A stretch of DNA of 43,799 nucleotides from an uncultured Rhodospirillaceae bacterium. GTDB lineage: Bacteria; Pseudomonadota; Alphaproteobacteria; Rhodospirillales; Casp-alpha2. Below, piece by piece: positions 87 through 19,844 of this stretch. Numbering within the stretch: the stretch's first letter is position 1; the number at the start of each line of letters is the position of its first letter. The notes under the pieces are model-generated. The model was not told the DNA's origin and made no database searches. It was given only the letters and a program-made list of their open reading frames with translations. A program made the translations under genes and the position numbers. Location: contig CAJWCU010000026.1 of the NCBI GenBank assembly GCA_913030825.1, positions 1-43,799 on the forward strand. Direction: 5' to 3'.

Positions 87-3000
87 TCAGGTTCTCAGGT
101 CTGAGCGTCCGGGGGCGGTGTCGTCGTATTGTCCGCCAAGCGCCGCGCCGAGAGATTTATCGACTTCATTCAACGCCTCGGCAAGGGCGGCCAAGAGGGG
201 CTCCACGTTCGCGGTGTCGGTACCGGAACGCAATGCGTCGTTCAGTGCTTTCGAGGCTTCGAATACCCGTCCCGCCCGGATGTTGCCGCTGACACCTTTA
301 AGGGAATGCGACGTGCGCTCGGCGGTCCCCATGTCACCGGACTCGAGGGCTTCGCCGATGGTCTCGGCAAGGTTCATGTATTTGGCGTGGAAGTCTCCCA
401 GTAGGCGCCTCAGGATGGCGTCGTTGCCGCGCATCATCTGGCGGGCGGCGGCCATGTCGATCCCCTGGATTTCATCGGGCAGGGCGGAGCCGTCCGATGG
501 CGCGGGCGGTTTCCGCGCGTCGAGAGAGCCCGGACGGGCCGCCGGTTTCGGCGCCGTGGCGGCGGCGAATGCCACTTGCGAGCCGTCCCGACCCGTCCAT
601 TTCGCCAGCGTTGCGAACAAATGGTCCGGATCGACCGGTTTGGTGATGTGGTCGTTCATGCCCGCGGCCAAGCATTTTTCCCTTTCGGAAGCCATGGCAT
701 GGGCGGTCATGGCGATGATCGGAAGTTTCGCATGTTTCTCTTGGGCGCGGATCGCGCGGGTGGCTTCGTAGCCGTCCATTTCCGGCATCTGCAAATCCAT
801 GAGTACGGCGTCATAGGGTTCGAGGCCGACCATGTTCAGCGCCTCCTTGCCGTTCGCCGCCACATCGATCTGAACCCCTTCTCCCGACAGCAATTCGATC
901 GCGACCTGCTGGTTGATCTCATTGTCTTCGGTCAACAGAACACGCAGGCCCGCGATCCGCGAAGTGGTTTGGGGGGCTTCGCCCGTATGGGGCGTGATCG
1001 GGGCCGATGCGTCGGCCGAAGCGCGCGCCGGGGTGGTGCAGGCCTCGGCGATGGCGTTGTAAAGCTGCGACGGGTTCAAAGGTTTGGAAAGAATGGCGGA
1101 GATATCCAGCCCCGCCGCAAGCTCACGGACCTGTTCCAGGTTCTGAGACGTCACCAGGATGATCGGCACGCGCGCGTCCGACGCAGGCAGGGAACTGATC
1201 CGCCGCGCCGTTTCGATGCCGTCCATGTCGGGCATTTGCCAATCGACCAACGCAATCTGGAACGGCGGCTCATCAGGCTGCGCGGCGTTACGTTCGAGTT
1301 CACTAATTCCCGCTTCGCCCGAATTGACGGTGGTCACGTCGAAGGACGACGCTTCCAGCGCTTCGGTTAAGATTTCGCGGGCCGTTTCGTTGTCGTCGAT
1401 GACCAGAACGCGGATGCCCTTGAGGGCACCGCTCGGGGGGCTCGTCTTCTCGGCCGAGGTGTCGATCCCGATCGAGACGGTGAACCAGAACGTGCTGCCT
1501 TTGCCTTCAACACTTTTGACGCCGATTTCGCCGCCCATCATTTCGACCAGACTGCGGCTGATCGCGAGGCCCAGTCCCGTGCCGCCGAACCGCCGCGTGG
1601 TCGATAGGTCGGCCTGAGTGAACGGCTGGAACAGGGTCCCCATCTGGGCCTTGGTCATGCCGATTCCCGTATCGGTGACCTCAAAGCGGAACCGGGCTTT
1701 ATTGCCTGAAAGCCCTTCCAACACCGTGTTCACGATGATCTCACCCTCTTCCGTGAACTTGATGGCGTTCGAGGTCAGATTGATCAGAATCTGGCCCAGA
1801 CGCAACGGATCGCCGGTCAATGACTTGGGGGCTTCCGGGTCCATTCGGAAAAGCATTTCGATCGACTTGTTCCCGGCCCGCGCGGTCATCATCGCCGCCA
1901 GGTTCGACATGACATTGTCTAACTGGAACGGCACGGATTCGATTTCCAGCTTTCCGGCTTCGATCTTGGAGAAATCCAGGATGTCGTTGATCAGACCGAG
2001 TAGTGCGTGCGACGAGACCTCGATTTTCGACAGATAATCGCTTTGCCGTGATGTCAGCTCCGTCTTCTGGGCAAGGCCGGTCAGACCGATGATGGCGTTG
2101 AGCGGTGTACGGATTTCGTGGCTCATATTCGCCAGGAACGAACTTTTGGCGGCGCTTGCATCTTCGGCCGCGACTTTGGCTTCCAACAATGTCCGTTCCG
2201 CCAGTTTCTGTTGAGTGATATCGGAATAAGTCGTGACGAACCCGCGCTTATCGGGCAGTGGGTTGCCGCGGATTTCAATGACCATGCCGTCGGGCCGGGA
2301 GCGCTCGAAATGATGGGGTTCGAACCGGCGGGCCAGGTCGATCCGGCTCGCCACCTGTTCCTCGGCATTGCCCGGCCCATATTCGCCGCGGTCCGCGTTG
2401 TAGCGGAAAAATTCGACGAGGTTGGTCCCCGGGGGGAACAGTTCGGGCGGAAATTCCAGTAATTCCAGGAATTTCGAGTTCGCGGTGATGACGTTCAAAT
2501 CTTCGTCGAACATGGTGATTCCCTGGTCCATGGTTTCCAGGGTCGTTTCCAGGATCGCCTTCTGCCGTTCGATTTCCTGTTCGGCCAGTTTCTGTTCGGT
2601 GATGTCGAGCATCGCCGTGCCGATGCCGGTAATGACGCCGTCGCGGTCCCGGACAGGGAACTTGATCAGGCGATAATATGGCGCGATGCCGTCGACCTTG
2701 TTGATCGTGGACTGGGTTTCGAGGACGACCACTTCGCCGCTTTCGACGACCTTGGCTTCAAGAGCCTTAACGTCGTCGGCTCGTGCCTTCGGCGCGAAAT
2801 CGTGCAACGTCTTACCGATCATTTTTTCCGGCGTTGTGCCGTGCCATTCGGCGAAGATTTTGTTGACGCTCAGGAACGTGCCGTCCACGCCCTTCAGGGC
2901 CAGCATGATGGGGACGTTTTCGGTGATGGCGCTCAGGCGCGAACGGGTCTCTTCCAGAGACCGCTGCGCTTCTTTCTCTTCCGTGATGTCATCGAATACG

Positions 3001-4166
3001 CCGACCAAATAGCCTTTGTACCAATCGCCGTACCGGGCATGGATGACCCGACCGTCGGCAAGCGGAACCTCGGCCACCGAATTGCCCGATCGGACAGTGG
3101 CGATCCGTGCCTCGACCGATCCGTCCTCGCCGCCTTTCAGGTCGCCCCGGGATTCCAGGTATGCCGCCGTGTCCTTGGCGTTCATGCCCATATCGACGAC
3201 GCCGTCCGGCAGACCCCAGACCTTTTCGAACTGCGGATTGACCGAAACGTAATTCATGTCTTCGTCGAAGACGCAAAGGCCCGAAGGCATGCTGTCCAAG
3301 ATAACCCGCAGGATCGCCGATTGCTGGGCGACCTGTTGTTCGGCCGCTTTTCGCTTGGTGATGTCCAGGGTCCAGACAATCCGGGCCTGGCGGCCGTCGT
3401 AGCGAATGGGCCGCCAGGTGGACATCGACCACCATTTGGTCACGCCGTCCAGATGGACGCGCTCGGCCTCCGAGTAATCGACCCGGCCGTCGCGGGCGAA
3501 ATCCGCCAACTTGTCGCTCAGCTCCGCCGAACGGACATAGGTGTCGTCAAAGTCGCGACCCAGAAGGTCGTCCAGGTTCGCCGCACCCAGTACCGCCGCC
3601 TGACGGGGATTGGCGAACAGGCATTTCCCGGTCTCGTTGTCCAGAATGGAAATCGCGATCGGGCTGTTCTCGAGGATATGGCGCATTTGCGCTTCGCTCT
3701 CGGCCAGGCGTTCCTCGGCCTGCCGCCGGTCGGTGATGTCGACCGTCGTCGTGATGACCCCGATGGCTCGGCCGTCCGCATCCTTGAGCGGCACCTTGGT
3801 GCAGATGGCTTGCCGCAGGTCGCCGTTCCGGTCCTTCAGTTCCAAATCGAAAAACGGGATCGGCTCGCCTGTTTCGATGATCTGGGCATTGAGCTTGTCC
3901 ATGGCCCGGGCGTGTTCCAAGCCGATGATCGTCGACGTATTACCCTTTATGTCGACATCTTCCAGGCCCAGGAAATCCTTGTGGTACCTGTTCGACATGA
4001 CGTAGCGGCCGTCCTGGTCCTTGACGTTGATCAAGGCCGGCACGGCGTCGATGACCGCCTGCAGTTCGGCGCGACTCTCCGCCAGGGATCGTTCGATACG
4101 CTTTCGGTTGGTGATGTCGGCGTAGACGGCGACGATGTAGCCGTCCGTCCAGTCGCCGAACTGCAC
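87..4166 (-). CDS. Multi-PAS hybrid histidine kinase, C-terminal portion (downstream of in-frame TAG)
   Basis: Cytoplasmic signalling half of a large hybrid kinase, 1359 residues from a GTG with no visible ribosome-binding site. Five PAS domains follow the stop (about residues 30-150, 155-275, 282-400, 405-530, 537-655). Then come HisKA with the phospho-acceptor His683 in [10 protein letters not shown], an ATPase domain (N800 region, DTGIGM 832-837, GGTGLGL 861-867), and receiver 1 (D975, K1028). Receiver 2 (D1124, K1176) and a C-terminal Hpt domain (H1287 in TSHSLKG) complete a His-Asp-Asp-His relay. All catalytic residues are intact. It is in the same frame as the ORF at 4239-5477 and separated from it only by a TAG, so the two ORFs look like one gene. 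The first PAS domain straddles the stop. The true product is probably the joined protein or a recently broken gene. Confidence 0.9.
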
Positions 4167-4238
4167 GTTGATGACGCGACCATCGGCGAGGGTCTGTTCA
4201 ACGGAGACCCGGCCCAGGCGAATCTGTTCCTCGCGGGC

Positions 4239-4241
4239 CTA
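4239..4241 (-). other. In-frame amber (TAG) codon interrupting the hybrid kinase gene
   Basis: On the minus strand the reading frame runs ...[17 protein letters not shown]... and continues in the same frame for 1384 further codons without another stop. The residues after the stop complete the PAS 1 domain: [14 protein letters not shown] parallels [14 protein letters not shown] of the fourth PAS domain. No frameshift is needed. The codon is one substitution from CAG, AAG, GAG or TGG. Elsewhere in the window TAG acts as a normal terminator (12770-12772 and 28653-28655), so genome-wide recoding is unlikely. Confidence 0.9.
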
Positions 4242-5477
4242 GATGGTTTCCTTGTGATCTTCCAGCGGGCCGAGCAGCCCTTTGTCGACGAGATGCCAGA
4301 ATGCTTCGCTTCGGGTGATGCCCGGTTGCAGAAAGCCTTCTTCGAAACCGTAGATATCCTGATAGCTGCGGTTGTAGGCGACGATGCGCAGGTCTTCGTC
4401 GAACATGCACAGTCCGTTGGGCATGTTGTCGAGGGCGAGCTGCAGTTGAGTTTCCATCAGACCGGAAAGCCGCTCGACCCGTTCTGACAACGGGTTCAGC
4501 AGCAGGAACAACCCGCAGATGCCCAGCAGTACGACGCCCAACACGCCGACGCCGGAATAGATCAGATTGTCATTCAGGTCGCCAAAGACTTCGTCCACGT
4601 CTTGACGCAGGATCAAGGCCAAGCCGTCTGTGATCTGTTCGTGGGCGGCCGTGACGCGATCGCCGATCGCGACCCCGGCGGGGCTGCTCCAGACGCTGAT
4701 TTCGTCGAGGAGATCCTTGCTGATGACGTTTTCGACGCGTTCGATGTCGCTGCCGTCCTGAAGGGCCATCATCAGGTTTCTGTCGCCGTCCCGGTACAAA
4801 AGGAATGCCCGGCCCGTCTTGCCCATGTCGGCATGGCCCGTGAACAGATCGAAGACCCGCGCCATCGACAAGGTGACGATGTCCACTCCGACGTGGCGTC
4901 CGTCCGGGGTCAGGATGGGCGAACTGGCGACCAGGTACTTGCCGTATCCCATGGCCGTCGGGCCTGATACCAGGGCGTCGATGCTGTCTTCCCAGCCGAC
5001 GGGCCAGGTTTTGCGATCCGGTGTGGCGCCGGTCGAGAAGACGGTTTCGCCCCGGCTGTTCAGGCGGGTAATTCCCAGGACTTCTTCCGACGAATCCATG
5101 GCGGCCTGGAAGATCGGTGCGATGGCGGCATCGAACTGGGTTTTGCCGATATCGCCGCTCTCCAGCGATTGCAGGAGGGTCCGGGCCCGCGTGCGGCTTG
5201 ATATCTGCGCTGCGATGCTTTTAGTGCGGCTGAGGATCTGGGTGATGCCGTCGGCTTTGGATCGGGCGATCTGAGTCAAATGCGTAACCGAGGCATCGCG
5301 CAATTGAATTTGCATCGGAACCATGACGAACAACGCCGTCAAGGCGGCGATGAGCATCACGCCGGCCAGGGAAAACCGCAACAGGTTGCGTTGCAGGCCC
5401 TTGATATCGCCGATATGTCGTTGGGGCACGGTCCCCTCGAAGCCAAAATTTTTGCCTCCTTCGATTTGGAGGCACAA
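4239..5477 (-). CDS. Sensor N-terminal portion of the same hybrid kinase (periplasmic sensor plus start of PAS 1)
   Basis: 412 residues ending at TAG 4239-4241. A first membrane helix (about 33-55) and a second (about 305-328) enclose a roughly 250-residue periplasmic domain. That domain resembles the Cache/CHASE class (RGETVFSTG near 142-150; GKTGRAFLLYRDGDRNL near 219-235). A PAS domain starts near residue 346 (NMPNGLCMFDEDLRIVAYN) and is cut off by the stop. The TTG at 5477 is the longest start; a GTG at 5429, just after GAGGGGACC, is at least as plausible and keeps both helices. By itself it has no kinase domain and would be a membrane sensor stub. The ligand is unknown. It is divergent from the receiver gene at 5715, a likely partner. 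Confidence 0.8.
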   Translation of the reverse strand: MCLQIEGGKNFGFEGTVPQRHIGDIKGLQRNLLRFSLAGVMLIAALTALFVMVPMQIQLRDASVTHLTQIARSKADGITQILSRTKSIAAQISSRTRARTLLQSLESGDIGKTQFDAAIAPIFQAAMDSSEEVLGITRLNSRGETVFSTGATPDRKTWPVGWEDSIDALVSGPTAMGYGKYLVASSPILTPDGRHVGVDIVTLSMARVFDLFTGHADMGKTGRAFLLYRDGDRNLMMALQDGSDIERVENVISKDLLDEISVWSSPAGVAIGDRVTAAHEQITDGLALILRQDVDEVFGDLNDNLIYSGVGVLGVVLLGICGLFLLLNPLSERVERLSGLMETQLQLALDNMPNGLCMFDEDLRIVAYNRSYQDIYGFEEGFLQPGITRSEAFWHLVDKGLLGPLEDHKETI

Positions 5478-5676: not shown

Positions 5677-5714
5677 CCTGTGGCACCTGCGGCAGGCGTA
5701 AGGAGATTGAATAT

Positions 5715-6092
5715 ATGGCTTCGATCCTTGTGATCGAGGACGATGAGTTCTTTCAGAACTTCCTGGAACTCGTCTTGTCCGGCGAAGGCCACGACGTGCG
5801 TATCGCCGAAGACGGTGACAAAGGTCTCGCGGCGGTGGCGGATGCGCGGCCGGATTTGATCCTCTGCGATATGAGCATGCCGAAGATGACCGGTTTCGAG
5901 GTCATCCGTGAACTCAAGAAAATGGACGGGGTCATGGACGTTCCGGTCATCGCGCTGTCGGCGCACGACACGGCGGCCGACCATGATGAAGCCTTTGCCG
6001 CCGGCGCTGCCGCCTATGAGACGAAACCCATCGAGATGGACCGCTTGATCGAGAGCGTCAACGAAGCCCTCAACGGCGGTCCGCCCGACTGA
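5715..6092 (+). CDS. Single-domain response regulator (CheY-like receiver)
   Basis: A 125-residue stand-alone receiver domain without an output domain. The acidic pair (IEDDE near residues 7-11), the phospho-acceptor Asp in LILCDMSMPK, the Ser/Thr switch in ALSAHD and the conserved Lys in YETKPIE are all present. It would accept phosphate from a hybrid kinase or Hpt protein and act by protein-protein contact. The ATG at 5715 is chosen because AGGAG (5701-5705) sits 9 bases before it and the receiver fold begins at once (MASILVIEDD). The frame is open upstream to 5547, but that extension has no domain character. It is divergent from the large hybrid kinase, making this its most likely partner, though the cognate pair is not proven by position. 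Confidence 0.9.
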   Translation: MASILVIEDDEFFQNFLELVLSGEGHDVRIAEDGDKGLAAVADARPDLILCDMSMPKMTGFEVIRELKKMDGVMDVPVIALSAHDTAADHDEAFAAGAAAYETKPIEMDRLIESVNEALNGGPPD

Positions 6093-12772: not shown

Positions 12773-12869
12773 GCGAACCCCGCGCCTCGGTTGCCGGGGC
12801 GGGCAAATGCCGTAAAATGCGCAGCAGCGGCGCCCGCCGGGCGCCCCGCGACGGTTGGAGTATCCGTTC

Positions 12870-14357
12870 ATGCAGATGCCGGACCCCGATCAACGGGTTA
12901 TCGAACGCCGGGCCGAGATCATCAAGGCCATGCGCACTATCGTTCCGGGCGAGGGGGTGATCGCCGACGAGGCCATGTTGAAGGCCTTCGAATGCGACGG
13001 CCTGATGGCGTATCGGCAATTGCCGCTGATCGTCGTGTTGCCGGAAACGACGGCGCAGGTCTCGCAGATTCTCGCCTATTGCCATCTGAACGATGTGAAG
13101 ATCGTGCCGCGCGGCGCCGGAACGGGTCTTTCGGGCGGTGCGTTGCCGCTGGCCGACGCCATCACCTTGGGCCTGTCCAAATTCAACCGGGTTCTCGATA
13201 TCGACTACCCCAACCGCTGTGCCGTGGTGCAGCCGGGGGTGACGAACTTAGGAGTCACGAAGGCGGTCGAGGCCGATGGGTTCTATTACGCGCCCGATCC
13301 GTCGTCGCAGATCGCCTGCTCCATCGGCGGCAACATCGCCGAGAACTCCGGCGGCGTGCATTGCCTGAAATACGGCCTGACGACCAACAATGTGTTGGGG
13401 CTGGAAATGGTCCTGATGGACGGCACGGTGCTGCGCCTGGGCGGCAAGCATCTGGACCCGGGCGGCTACGACCTGCTCGGCGTGATGACCGGCTCGGAAG
13501 GGCTGCTCGGCGTCATTACCGAGGTCACCGTGCGGATCTTGAAAAAGCCGGAGACCGCGCGGGCGGTGCTGCTCGGCTTCAACTCGTCGGAAGAAGGCGG
13601 TGATTGCGTCGCCGCCATCATCAACGCAGGCATCATCCCGGGCGGCATCGAAATGATGGACAAGCCCGCGATCCACGCGACCGAGGAATTCGTCCACGCC
13701 GGGTATCCGCTGGACGTCGAAGCCTTGTTGATCGTCGAACTGGACGGCCCGCAGATCGAGGTCGACCACCTGATCGAACAGGTCGGCGAGATCGCCAAGG
13801 GCCAGGGTGCGGTCTATTCCCGCATTTCCGAGACCGAGGAAGAACGCGCCGTGTTCTGGTCCGGGCGCAAGAACGCCTTTCCGGCCGTCGGCCGCATGTC
13901 GCCGGACTACCTTTGCATGGACGGCACGATCCCCCGGAACAAGCTGGCCCTGGTTCTTAAACGCACGGCGGAACTGTCACAAAAATACGGTCTGCGCGTC
14001 GCCAACGTGTTCCATGCCGGCGACGGCAACCTGCACCCGCTGATCCTGTTCGACGCCAACCAGCCGGGCGAACTGGACAAGGCCGAACAGTTCGGCGGCG
14101 ATATCCTGAAACTCTGTGTCGAGGTCGGCGGCGTGCTGACCGGCGAACACGGCGTCGGGGTGGAGAAACGCGACCTGATGGGCGAGATGTTCACCGAGGA
14201 CGATCTGAAGCAGCAGCAGCGCGTCAAATGCGCCTTCGATCCGACCCATCAATTGAACCCCGGCAAGGTCTATCCGACCCTGCACCGCTGCGCCGAACTG
14301 GGCCGCATGCATATCTCGCGCGGCCAGGTGCCGTTCCCCGACATCCCCCGATTCTAA
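12870..14357 (+). CDS. glcD: Glycolate oxidase FAD-linked subunit GlcD
   Basis: A 495-residue flavoprotein of the FAD-linked oxidase (PCMH-type) family, the catalytic subunit that oxidises glycolate to glyoxylate. The FAD-binding segment is VPRGAGTGLSGGALPLADAITLGLSKFNRVLDID, with IGGNIAENSGGVHCLKYGLT and GSEGLLGVITEVTVRIL. The C-terminal cap carries NVFHAGDGNLHPLILFD and GEHGVGVEKRDLM. ATG at 12870 has GGAG 9 bases upstream; a TTG at 12855 would place the Shine-Dalgarno inside the gene. It is followed by glcE after 10 bases and glcF, forming the three-subunit complex, which passes electrons to the membrane quinone pool. Confidence 0.95.
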   Translation: MQMPDPDQRVIERRAEIIKAMRTIVPGEGVIADEAMLKAFECDGLMAYRQLPLIVVLPETTAQVSQILAYCHLNDVKIVPRGAGTGLSGGALPLADAITLGLSKFNRVLDIDYPNRCAVVQPGVTNLGVTKAVEADGFYYAPDPSSQIACSIGGNIAENSGGVHCLKYGLTTNNVLGLEMVLMDGTVLRLGGKHLDPGGYDLLGVMTGSEGLLGVITEVTVRILKKPETARAVLLGFNSSEEGGDCVAAIINAGIIPGGIEMMDKPAIHATEEFVHAGYPLDVEALLIVELDGPQIEVDHLIEQVGEIAKGQGAVYSRISETEEERAVFWSGRKNAFPAVGRMSPDYLCMDGTIPRNKLALVLKRTAELSQKYGLRVANVFHAGDGNLHPLILFDANQPGELDKAEQFGGDILKLCVEVGGVLTGEHGVGVEKRDLMGEMFTEDDLKQQQRVKCAFDPTHQLNPGKVYPTLHRCAELGRMHISRGQVPFPDIPRF

Positions 14358-14367
14358 GCAAGACACG

Positions 14368-15603
14368 ATGACTGAAATACTGAAACCGGATAACGCCGAC
14401 CAGGTGCTGGACGCCGTCAAATGGGCGGTCTCGGAAGCGACCCCGCTGGAGGTTCGCAGCCTCGGCACCAAGGCGGGCTTCGGCCGTCCGGTGCAGGCGG
14501 GCCGGGTGCTGGACCTTTCGAACCTCTCCGGCATCACCGATTACGATCCGGGCGAATTGGTCCTGACCGCCGGCCCCGCGACGCCCATGGCCGAGATCGA
14601 ACGGGCGCTTGCCGCCGCCAATCAGGAATTGCAGTTCGAGCCGATGGACCTAGGCCCGCTCTATGGTGGGTCCACGGACGCCCCTGCCACCGGCACAATC
14701 GGCGGCGTGATCGCCGCCAACCTATCCGGTCCGCGCCGGGTGAAGTCGGGCGCGGCCCGCGATCATTTCCTGGGCTTCCACGCCGTCTCGGGCCGTGGCG
14801 AGGTGTTCAAATCCGGCGGCAAGGTGATGAAGAACGTCACCGGTTTCGATCTGTCGAAATTGATGGCGGGCTCGTTCGGTACCCTCGCCGTAATGACGGA
14901 AGTCACCGTGAAGGTGCTGCCGCGCCCGGAGAAGACCCGGACGGTTCTGCTGATGGGGGGCGACGACGAAGCGGCGGTCGCGGCGCTCTGCGATGCGCTC
15001 GGCTCCAGCCACGAAGTCGCCGGGGCGGCCCATCTGCCGGCTGCCGTCGCCGCGCGTTCGGGCGTCGGCTACGTCGCGGGGGCGGGGGCGTCCGTCACCG
15101 CCGTCCGCATCGAAGGGCCGGGGCCCAGCGTCGAACACCGCTGCGCCGCCCTGACCGACCAGTTCAAGGCGCTGGGTGCCGTCGAAGAACTTCATTCCCA
15201 CAATTCCATCGCCTTCTGGCGCGAAGTCCGCGACGCGATCCCGTTCACCGGCGACCGCGCGGGCGATCAGGTCTGGCGCATCAGCGTGCCGCCGACGGCG
15301 GGGGCCGAGGTCGTCCGCCGCCTGACCGACGGGCTCGGCGGCGACGCCTATTACGACTGGGGCGGCGGACTGATCTGGTTCGCCCTGCCGACGCGGGAAG
15401 ACGCAGGCGCCACCGCCGTCCGCGCCGCCATCGCCGATTGCGGCGGCCACGCGACTTTGGTCCGGGCATCCGCCGACGTGCGCCAGGCGGTCGAGGTCTT
15501 CCAGCCGCAGCCGGGCCCGCTCGACGAGTTGTCCCGCCGGGTGAAAGACGCCTTCGATCCCGAAGGCGTGCTCAATCCGGGCCGTATGGTCGCGGGGGTA
15601 TAA
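14368..15603 (+). CDS. glcE: Glycolate oxidase FAD-binding subunit GlcE
   Basis: A 411-residue relative of GlcD that keeps the FAD-binding half (LYGGSTDAPATGTIGGVIAANLSGPRR; GRGEVFKSGGKVMKNVTGFDLSKLMAGSFGTLAVMTEVTVKVLP) and a shorter cap domain ending FDPEGVLNPGRMVAG. It is required together with GlcD and GlcF for glycolate oxidase activity in characterised systems. The length is close to the usual. It lies 10 bases after glcD and 6 bases before glcF, so the three are one transcriptional unit. Confidence 0.94.
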   Translation: MTEILKPDNADQVLDAVKWAVSEATPLEVRSLGTKAGFGRPVQAGRVLDLSNLSGITDYDPGELVLTAGPATPMAEIERALAAANQELQFEPMDLGPLYGGSTDAPATGTIGGVIAANLSGPRRVKSGAARDHFLGFHAVSGRGEVFKSGGKVMKNVTGFDLSKLMAGSFGTLAVMTEVTVKVLPRPEKTRTVLLMGGDDEAAVAALCDALGSSHEVAGAAHLPAAVAARSGVGYVAGAGASVTAVRIEGPGPSVEHRCAALTDQFKALGAVEELHSHNSIAFWREVRDAIPFTGDRAGDQVWRISVPPTAGAEVVRRLTDGLGGDAYYDWGGGLIWFALPTREDAGATAVRAAIADCGGHATLVRASADVRQAVEVFQPQPGPLDELSRRVKDAFDPEGVLNPGRMVAGV

Positions 15604-15609
15604 AAAACC

Positions 15610-16902
15610 ATGCAAACAACCTTCTCCCTGGCCCAGATGGCCGATCCGCATATCGAGCAGGCCAACGACATTCTGCGGAAATGCGTGCATTGCGGCTTCT
15701 GCACGGCGACCTGCCCGACCTTCGTCCTGCTGGGCAACGAGTTGGACAGCCCGCGCGGGCGCATCTACCTGATCAAGGGGCTGTTGGAACAGGACGCGGC
15801 GCCGACGGAAGAACACGTCACCCATATCGACCGCTGCCTGACCTGCCTGTCCTGTACCACGACCTGTCCGTCGGGCGTCGACTACATGCATCTGATCGAC
15901 GACGCGCGGGCCAAGATCGAACGCGAGTACACCCGGCCGCTCGCCGACCGTCTGTTCCGCAAGATGCTGACCATGGTGCTGCCCTATCCGGGGCGGTTCC
16001 GCCTGGCGCTGCTGGGGGCCTGGCTGGCGAAGCCTTTCGCCAAGGTCCTGCCGGGGCCGCTCGGCGCGATGCTGGGGTTGGCGCCCCAGCGCATCCATAG
16101 TCCCAGCACCGTCGACAATCCCCAGGTCTTCAAAGCCGAGGGGACGATGAAGAAACGCGTCGCCCTGATGACCGGCTGCGCGCAACAGGTGTTGAACCCG
16201 GCGATCAACGAAGCGACGGTGCGCCTGCTGACCCGTCACGGCTGCGAAGTCGTCGTCGCCGACGGGCAGGGGTGCTGCGGCGCCTTGGTCCACCACATGG
16301 GCAAGGAAGACGAAAGCCATGCCCAGGCGGCGGCCAATATCACGGCCTGGGAAGTGGCCGAGGCCAAGCACGGGCAGATCGACGCCATCGTCATCAACGC
16401 ATCGGGCTGCGGCACGACGGTGAAGGATTACGGCTGGATGTTCCGCCGGGATGCGGTCCTGGCCGACCGCGCGGCGGCGATCTCCGCAAAGACCAAGGAC
16501 GTGACCGAGGTAATGTCCGACCTGGGGTTGAACGCCGCGACGACCGGCGCGGACAAACCGACCGTCGTCTATCATTCCGCCTGTTCCATGCAACACGGCC
16601 AGAAGCTGACCAGCCCGCCCAAGACGCTACTGTCCCAGGCCGGGTTCGAGGTCCGCGAGCCCATCGAAGGCCACCTCTGCTGCGGTTCCGCCGGGACCTA
16701 CAACATCATGCAGCCGGAAATCTCGGCCCGCCTGAAGGAGCGCAAAGCCAAGAACCTGCGCGCGACCGAGGCCCAGGTCATGGCGACCGGCAACATCGGC
16801 TGCATGATGCAGTTGCAGGACGCCGTCGGCATGCCCGTGGTCCATACGGTCGAACTGCTGGACTGGGCCACCGGTGGGCCCAAGCCCGCTGGATTGGACT
16901 AA
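15610..16902 (+). CDS. glcF: Glycolate oxidase iron-sulfur subunit GlcF
   Basis: A 430-residue electron-transfer subunit. Two ferredoxin-type 4Fe-4S motifs are visible: C25, C28, C31, C35 (CVHCGFCTATCP) and C76, C79, C82, C86 (CLTCLSCTTTCP). Two CCG domains follow, marked by GCCGALVHHMGK and LCCGSAGTYNIMQPE. The product carries electrons from the GlcD/GlcE flavins toward quinone at the inner membrane. It closes the glycolate operon; the next gene starts 254 bases on behind its own regulatory dyads. Confidence 0.95.
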   Translation: MQTTFSLAQMADPHIEQANDILRKCVHCGFCTATCPTFVLLGNELDSPRGRIYLIKGLLEQDAAPTEEHVTHIDRCLTCLSCTTTCPSGVDYMHLIDDARAKIEREYTRPLADRLFRKMLTMVLPYPGRFRLALLGAWLAKPFAKVLPGPLGAMLGLAPQRIHSPSTVDNPQVFKAEGTMKKRVALMTGCAQQVLNPAINEATVRLLTRHGCEVVVADGQGCCGALVHHMGKEDESHAQAAANITAWEVAEAKHGQIDAIVINASGCGTTVKDYGWMFRRDAVLADRAAAISAKTKDVTEVMSDLGLNAATTGADKPTVVYHSACSMQHGQKLTSPPKTLLSQAGFEVREPIEGHLCCGSAGTYNIMQPEISARLKERKAKNLRATEAQVMATGNIGCMMQLQDAVGMPVVHTVELLDWATGGPKPAGLD

Positions 16903-18404: not shown

Positions 18405-19844
18405 ATGGCGATTAATGAAACATCTCCGGGCGCCCAGGCGCCCGGCTCCTTGAACGCATCCGGTTACGGCACGGTCGACGGCGAATTGCTCGACGTTCTG
18501 AGCCAAATCGTCGGCGCCGACAACCTGTCGACCGGCGAGGCCGTCCGCGAACAGCATGGCCGCGACGAATCCTATCATCCCAGCGTCCCGCCCGACGCCG
18601 TCGTTTACTGCACCGAAACGGATCAGGTCGCGGCGGTCGTCCGCGCCTGCGCCGACCGCGCCGTCCCGGTCATTCCCTTCGGCACGGGCACATCGTTGGA
18701 AGGACATGTCGCGGCCCTGTCCGGCGGCGTCTGCGTCGACGTTTCGCGCATGGACAAGATCATCCAGGTCAACGCCGAGGACATGGACGTCACGGTCCAG
18801 GCCGGGGTTCGGCGCAAGGCGCTGAACGAATACCTGCGCGATACGGGCCTGTTCTTTCCCATCGATCCGGGGGCCGACGCCTCGATCGGCGGCATGACCG
18901 CGACGCGGGCCAGCGGCACCAACGCCGTGCGCTACGGCACCATGCGGGAAAACGTCCTGGCCCTGACCGTGGTCATGGCCGACGGGCGGGTGATCCGCAC
19001 GGCCCGGCGGGCGCGGAAGTCCGCGGCTGGATACGACCTGACGCGCCTGTTCGTCGGCTCGGAAGGGACGCTCGGCGTCATTACCGAGGTGACCGTCAAA
19101 CTGTACGGCATCCCGGAAGCGATCCTGTCCGCCGTCTGCCCCTTCCCCGATCTGGAAAGCGCGGTGAACACGACGATCCTGACGATTCAGTCGGGCATCC
19201 CCGTGGCACGGATCGAGCTTCTGGACGAGGCGCAATTGGACGCCGTGAACAAGTATTCGGGCCTCGACTGCGCCCTGACGCCGACCCTGTTCTTTGAATT
19301 CCACGGCAGCGACGCCGGCGCGCGCGAGCAGGTTGAAAACGTCAAGGCCATCGCCCAGGAATTCGGCGCCGACGATTTCCAATGGGCGACCAAGCCGGAA
19401 GACCGCAACAAGCTTTGGCAGGCCCGGCACGACGCCTATTACGCGGCCATCGCGCTCCGCCCCGGCTGCCGGGGGATCGCCACGGACGTCTGCGTGCCGA
19501 TTTCGCGGCTCGCCGACTGCATCCTGGAAACCCGCAAGGACATCGACGCTTCGGGCCTGTGCGCGCCCATCGTCGGCCATGTCGGCGACGGCAATTTCCA
19601 CGTCATCTTCGTCGTCGATTTCGACAACGAAGACGAGATCAAGAAGGCGGAAGAGGTCAATGAGCGCATGGTTCTGCGCGCCATCGCCATGGAAGGCACC
19701 TGCACGGGCGAACACGGCATCGGCTACGGCAAGATGGATTTCCTGACGGCGGAGCACGGCGACGCCATCGCCGCCATGCGGGCGGTGAAGCTCGCCCTCG
19801 ATCCGCAGAACATCATGAACCCGGGCAAGATCATCCGGGTTTGA
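18405..19844 (+). CDS. FAD-linked oxidase, D-lactate dehydrogenase (cytochrome)/GlcD-like
   Basis: A 479-residue PCMH-type flavoprotein related to D-lactate dehydrogenase and GlcD. The FAD segment is VIPFGTGTSLEGHVAALSGGVCVDVSRMDKI with GADASIGGMTATRASGTNAVRYGT and GSEGTLGVITEVTVKLYG. The cap ends in CAPIVGHVGDGNFHVIFVVD, GEHGIGYGKMDFL and LDPQNIMNPGKIIRV. It likely oxidises a D-2-hydroxy acid (D-lactate is the best guess) and passes electrons to cytochrome c or quinone. It differs clearly from the GlcD at 12870 (for example VGHVGDGNFHV versus VFHAGDGNLHP), so it is a distinct family member. It starts 1 base after the TPR gene stop. Confidence 0.88.
   Translation: MAINETSPGAQAPGSLNASGYGTVDGELLDVLSQIVGADNLSTGEAVREQHGRDESYHPSVPPDAVVYCTETDQVAAVVRACADRAVPVIPFGTGTSLEGHVAALSGGVCVDVSRMDKIIQVNAEDMDVTVQAGVRRKALNEYLRDTGLFFPIDPGADASIGGMTATRASGTNAVRYGTMRENVLALTVVMADGRVIRTARRARKSAAGYDLTRLFVGSEGTLGVITEVTVKLYGIPEAILSAVCPFPDLESAVNTTILTIQSGIPVARIELLDEAQLDAVNKYSGLDCALTPTLFFEFHGSDAGAREQVENVKAIAQEFGADDFQWATKPEDRNKLWQARHDAYYAAIALRPGCRGIATDVCVPISRLADCILETRKDIDASGLCAPIVGHVGDGNFHVIFVVDFDNEDEIKKAEEVNERMVLRAIAMEGTCTGEHGIGYGKMDFLTAEHGDAIAAMRAVKLALDPQNIMNPGKIIRV

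Follow-up and report, generated by a model that had tools for sequence, protein, structure and literature searches.

In-frame stop codons inside bacterial genes are reported to be widespread and short-lived, and Belinky et al. (2021, PMC7918605) take undecayed in-frame stops as pointing to frequent readthrough. Signalling genes are among those affected. Diguanylate cyclase genes of Shigella that carry nonsense mutations ahead of the GGDEF domain are described as still yielding c-di-GMP along with several protein products (PMC11327459). The stop itself can also leak: in E. coli, TAG reporters measured at several temperatures and in two media leaked on average at 0.01-0.80% of the wild-type level, leakage was higher when the base following the stop was G, and in some contexts readthrough reached up to 80% under stress; predicted mRNA structure did not explain the readthrough hotspots (PMC11126739).

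Here, we analyze a hybrid histidine kinase gene of an uncultured Rhodospirillaceae bacterium. The window, a stretch of 43,799 nucleotides, is the entire contig C26 of a 68-contig draft genome of 95.88% completeness. The kinase frame lies on the minus strand (5477..87) and is interrupted by one in-frame TAG at 4239-4241, 4.2 kb inside the contig and away from its edge. Upstream of the TAG, the frame is open to a TTG at 5477 (412 aa); downstream, 1,383 open codons lead to the terminal stop at 87-89. Translated with X at the TAG, the frame amounts to 1,796 residues. An earlier sequence-only reading had described a single TAG splitting an otherwise intact kinase of 1,796 codons, with both halves open in one frame, and our reading agrees; the interrupted frame is thus confirmed as real at the level of sequence. 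A GTG at window position 5429, where homology begins, is common to all seven kinase sequences and is therefore likely to be the start. From it, the gene would probably occupy 87..5429, with 396 residues encoded before the stop (4242..5429) and the open remainder after it (90..4238). A 1,383-codon open frame with complete domains is not a product of chance.

This arrangement resembles the cases of Belinky et al. in its single in-frame stop, its conserved coding sequence on both sides, and its apparently short life. To guard against artefacts, however, those authors kept stops common to at least two species (PMC7918605), and the kinase stop, seen in one genome, would fail that filter. The likeness to the Shigella cyclases is that a signalling gene has a stop before its catalytic domain, which is still encoded afterward. 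In Shigella, both products and activity were measured, and most of the genes have a Met codon within tens of residues of the stop (PMC11327459), whereas the first start after the kinase stop is weak.

The part upstream of the TAG encodes a membrane helix, a sensor, a second membrane helix, and the first half of a PAS domain. Both helices were read from the sequence and from the helices of a structure model, which we built for the ortholog in genome G006 using seven aligned sequences (mean pLDDT 76.3, pTM 0.55). Although the sensor part matches Pfam dCache_1 with 29.8 bits, under the cut-off of 45, a fold search with the ortholog model points to a Cache-type ligand-binding domain, and we refer to it as dCache-like. 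The first three PDB matches are integrative models of whole receptors. The next are ligand-binding domains of chemoreceptors, such as PctA and Tlp3, and of histidine kinases, mostly with TM scores by target length of 0.5-0.65; the depositors of one call it a dCACHE domain.

Downstream of the TAG, the frame encodes the rest of the first PAS domain and about five more. The total of roughly six, obtained by reading overlapping Pfam PAS matches, corrects the earlier reading. These are followed by HisKA (1953..2150) with His1120, HATPase_c (1473..1814), a first receiver domain matched by Response_reg in two stretches (1038..1442, limits approximate) with Asp1412, a second receiver domain (606..941) with Asp1561, and an Hpt domain (159..404) with His1724. 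In the 1,796-residue numbering, these four residues occupy the usual motifs; within each motif, they are what we take to be the phospho-acceptors. The catalytic residues after the stop had already been called intact, and they are: the His683 and Hpt His1287 of that account correspond to His1120 and His1724 when counted from the GTG at 4166. All of the domains and phosphotransfer residues of hybrid histidine kinases with Cache, PAS, HisKA, HATPase, REC, and Hpt modules are therefore present in frame. Unlike such kinases, the gene is split by one stop: everything that defines the kinase (HisKA His, HATPase, receiver Asp, and Hpt His) lies 3′ of the TAG, and decoding by the standard code stops short of the kinase part. 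A further difference concerns the first receiver (1038-1442), which is shared with one ortholog, L044, and absent from the other five, L039-L043; it appears to have been gained or lost within one genus.

The TAG cuts the first PAS domain, PAS1 (4092..4433, limits approximate; Pfam PAS_7), whose match ahead of the stop spans positions 1-58 of the 115 in the profile. As had been proposed, PAS1 continues across the stop without a break, and in the ortholog alignment its homology runs straight through the TAG. In the G006 model, the stop aligns to residue 398, within a helix (393-406) that precedes the last three PAS strands (410-439), which places it inside the PAS1 fold rather than at a domain boundary. 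Judged from the model, the interior of PAS1 would be a poor place to end a useful stub.

We searched for orthologs in 61 genomes, including the window's own, and within the genus in eight, again including its own. An uninterrupted ortholog occurs in six of the seven other genomes of the genus (G001 to G006); none was found in G007, which is 83% complete. Each of the six is one frame, 1,443 to 1,690 codons long from stop to stop. None has a stop at the TAG position, where four encode Lys, one Arg, and one Ser. This check of the codon in close relatives, suggested by the sequence-only reading, speaks against programmed, conserved readthrough and in favor of a private nonsense change or an error. 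Residue differences between the window gene and its orthologs amount to 48 to 56% ahead of the stop and 34 to 47% behind it. The branch carrying the stop is therefore long, and the age of the stop cannot be read from these relatives alone.

The surroundings of the gene are also shared. In five of the six relatives, its neighbors are a receiver protein, an aminotransferase, an EamA transporter, and a methyltransferase (Pfam names); in the sixth, G003, the contig begins near the kinase gene. The receiver protein is a divergently oriented single-domain protein on the plus strand (5697..6089, with homology starting at about this point) that adjoins the kinase in the same five relatives. It is 76-82% identical over 124-154 residues in the relatives and is a likely partner of the kinase. 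A scan of genome contigs gave 17 loci, of which the only ortholog was L022, on the same contig as L044; the others matched over short stretches, mostly of PAS, and the plasmid records searched gave no match. Domain content varies among the orthologs as well. PAS1 of L043 (genome G005) is identical to that of L039 at 25 of 67 residues, far below the rest of the same protein, PAS2 is missing from two orthologs, L043 and L044, and the shortest ortholog, in G003, lacks more. The sequences of L043 and L044 suggest exchange or loss of PAS units.

If the TAG had been present for long, further lesions might be expected behind it. There is no second stop in the 1,383 codons. For each unit of neutral divergence, these codons offer 102 to 127 opportunities for a new stop, depending on transition weight; with none observed, neutral divergence since the lesion should not, at the 5% level, exceed about 0.024 to 0.029 substitutions per site. 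G+C content by codon position is nearly equal before (0.614, 0.408, 0.774) and after the stop (0.622, 0.428, 0.772). To look for relaxed selection, we compared changes private to the window gene with changes private to L043 at sites fixed in L039-L042. The ratios were 38:39 before the stop and 111:62 after it (Fisher p = 0.036), a signal of faster change after the stop that we traced to the divergent PAS1 of L043: in that domain, the window gene retains 48 of 67 identities to L039 versus 25 of 67 in L043. Without PAS1 and PAS2, an exclusion chosen after the per-domain table was seen, the ratios became 36:20 and 108:50 (p = 0.62), and we do not regard relaxation as clear. If the base is real, the gene thus shares with pseudogenes a disabling lesion where relatives are intact, but neither further stops nor, except when PAS1 and PAS2 are included, faster change. 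The earlier statement that no decay followed the stop holds. Given no decay and no clear relaxation, the lesion appears to be either young or not real, although the absence of decay by itself is equally compatible with a young change, an error, or readthrough.

General recoding of TAG had been thought unlikely, and the decoding machinery of the genome bears this out. RF1 is present as an open gene scoring over its cut-off, while the best PylS match reaches 31 bits against a cut-off of 178. We sampled the window plus 20 chosen stretches of 20 kb, which together cover twelve contigs and about 444 kb of 3.99 Mb. The terminal stops of the 365 genes called there by codon usage were TGA in 206, TAG in 87, and TAA in 72, counts that are rough. 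The proposed search for an amber suppressor gave none with the anticodon CUA among the 35 tRNAs found in the draft, and the only match of one CUA-type pattern was a tRNA-Arg(TCT). Genome-wide amber recoding, including by pyrrolysine, was rejected on these grounds. The 35 tRNA genes found in this genome (G000) include none called for Trp, Tyr, or Ile, which were probably lost with gaps in the draft assembly. A suppressor tRNA may likewise sit in unassembled DNA, and its absence from the draft is therefore no proof.

Other genes broken in this manner were also sought. The 444-kb sample contains 36 pairs of same-frame neighbors, and among the 14 junctions that we read, mostly those with small gaps, the kinase was the only single broken gene. 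The other 13 pairs we take to be different neighboring genes, such as urease subunits or MurE/MurF, or frames called on the wrong strand, which is presumably the case for the L093 pair. Frames at window positions 14749-16863 were called on the wrong strand, where Pfam confirmed plus-strand genes; the caller therefore errs, and its counts are rough. The Pfam scan of window frames extended to 33594, and within that range, we noticed no other such break. Nine paralog matches were flagged with internal stops, including one TAG in the genome to which the window belongs. We inspected six of the nine (two each from this genome and G004, one each from G007 and G001, leaving two from G002 and one from G004), and each stop proved to be the end of a long open frame; a second TAG-split kinase was thus rejected.

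We also considered whether the downstream part could be translated separately. The first in-frame start after the stop, a GTG at 4166, is preceded by weak Shine-Dalgarno pairing (-3.0 kcal/mol). Later in-frame starts pair better: GTG 4043 at -7.0, ATG 3998 at -6.5, and TTG 3509 at -8.7. These values fall among those of eight starts presumed for genes in the window, which run from -2.5 to -9.4; on visual inspection, however, the spacing of the pairing before 4043 and 3998 is less than ideal. The claim that the second half has no ribosome-binding site therefore stands just after the stop but not further in. With the stop and its preceding codons included, the RNA here folds rather stably (z = -2.15). 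Beyond the stop, it is among the most stable 5% at 90 nt (27 of 584 gene windows are as stable) and at 123 nt (28 of 580). At 60 nt, its stability is unremarkable (111 of 587 windows are as stable), and the corresponding segment of the six stop-free relatives folds about as well (-17.1 to -21.6 versus -20.4 in the window). With the lengths in disagreement, we did not retain a special RNA element after the stop.

The sequence-only reading had named a recent nonsense mutation, a sequencing error, and programmed readthrough as explanations. The sense codon in all six orthologs favors the first two over the third but does not separate mutation from error, and the weights that we give to the four explanations considered here are a matter of judgement. 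What we found is a stop, an open and conserved remainder, and a sense codon in six orthologs. We think it probable, though far from assured, that a recent nonsense substitution, private to the lineage or strain, interrupts the kinase. In this membrane-bound dCache-PAS hybrid histidine kinase, an amber stop would have replaced a sense codon of PAS1; translation would mostly end there, leaving a stub that is anchored in the membrane and has half a PAS domain but lacks the kinase; and the allele would be mainly loss of function, its downstream part still intact only because the change is young. We infer both that the organism truly carries this base and that the stub has no activity. The absent decay weighs against a recent nonsense allele to the extent that an error, or a full-length protein still in use, would give it equally. 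An error in the consensus or the assembly, or a variant of a minority strain taken into the draft, with the real gene intact, is a possibility that we take seriously but hold to be clearly less probable. The fragmented draft, the uninterrupted orthologs, and the lack of decay all agree with it, and rare consensus errors could account for one broken gene in roughly 365 called. Against an error, the stop lies well inside the contig and the scanned part of the window shows no other such break.

If the base is real, the gene might retain some incidental function, either through internal starts that would yield a soluble, sensorless kinase or through leaky readthrough that would yield traces of the full protein. 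The Shine-Dalgarno-like sequences before GTG 4043, ATG 3998, and TTG 3509 would allow the former, and the Shigella cyclases do stay active despite nonsense mutations (PMC11327459); for the latter, E. coli TAG reporters leak, and the kinase TAG has directly 3′ the G that raises leakage (PMC11126739). Nevertheless, the first start after the stop is weak and a sensorless kinase would presumably be uncoupled from its signal, and we regard such residual function as unlikely. Still harder to credit is a real, selected dose control, in which leaky readthrough, helped by the G and the stable RNA, would yield full kinase in trace amounts, and signalling would be altered by the stub or by a sensorless kinase made from an internal start. 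Least probable is programmed TAG readthrough that would supply a little full-length kinase alongside a sensor stub. The open frame, the conserved domains, and the stability of the RNA at 90 and 123 nt would suit it, but the stop is not conserved, it falls inside a PAS fold, no UAG-reading tRNA is among the 35 found, and the RNA just after it is ordinary and similar in stop-free relatives.

Should the base be real, the nonsense substitution that we favor would probably mean that a large sensor kinase, present in six of the seven genus mates examined, is lost or weakened in this strain, and the gene should be annotated as a nonsense allele. An in-frame stop in a single genome with no decay behind it is expected for new nonsense alleles and errors alike and, alone, is no evidence of recoding. 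As an ordinary kind of in-frame stop, this one matters little beyond its genome.

Elsewhere in the window (12855-16902 and 18405-19841), an Fe-S/CCG protein and two proteins of the FAD-binding oxidase type are encoded in a row, with another FAD-linked oxidase nearby; the row resembles glycolate oxidase DEF.
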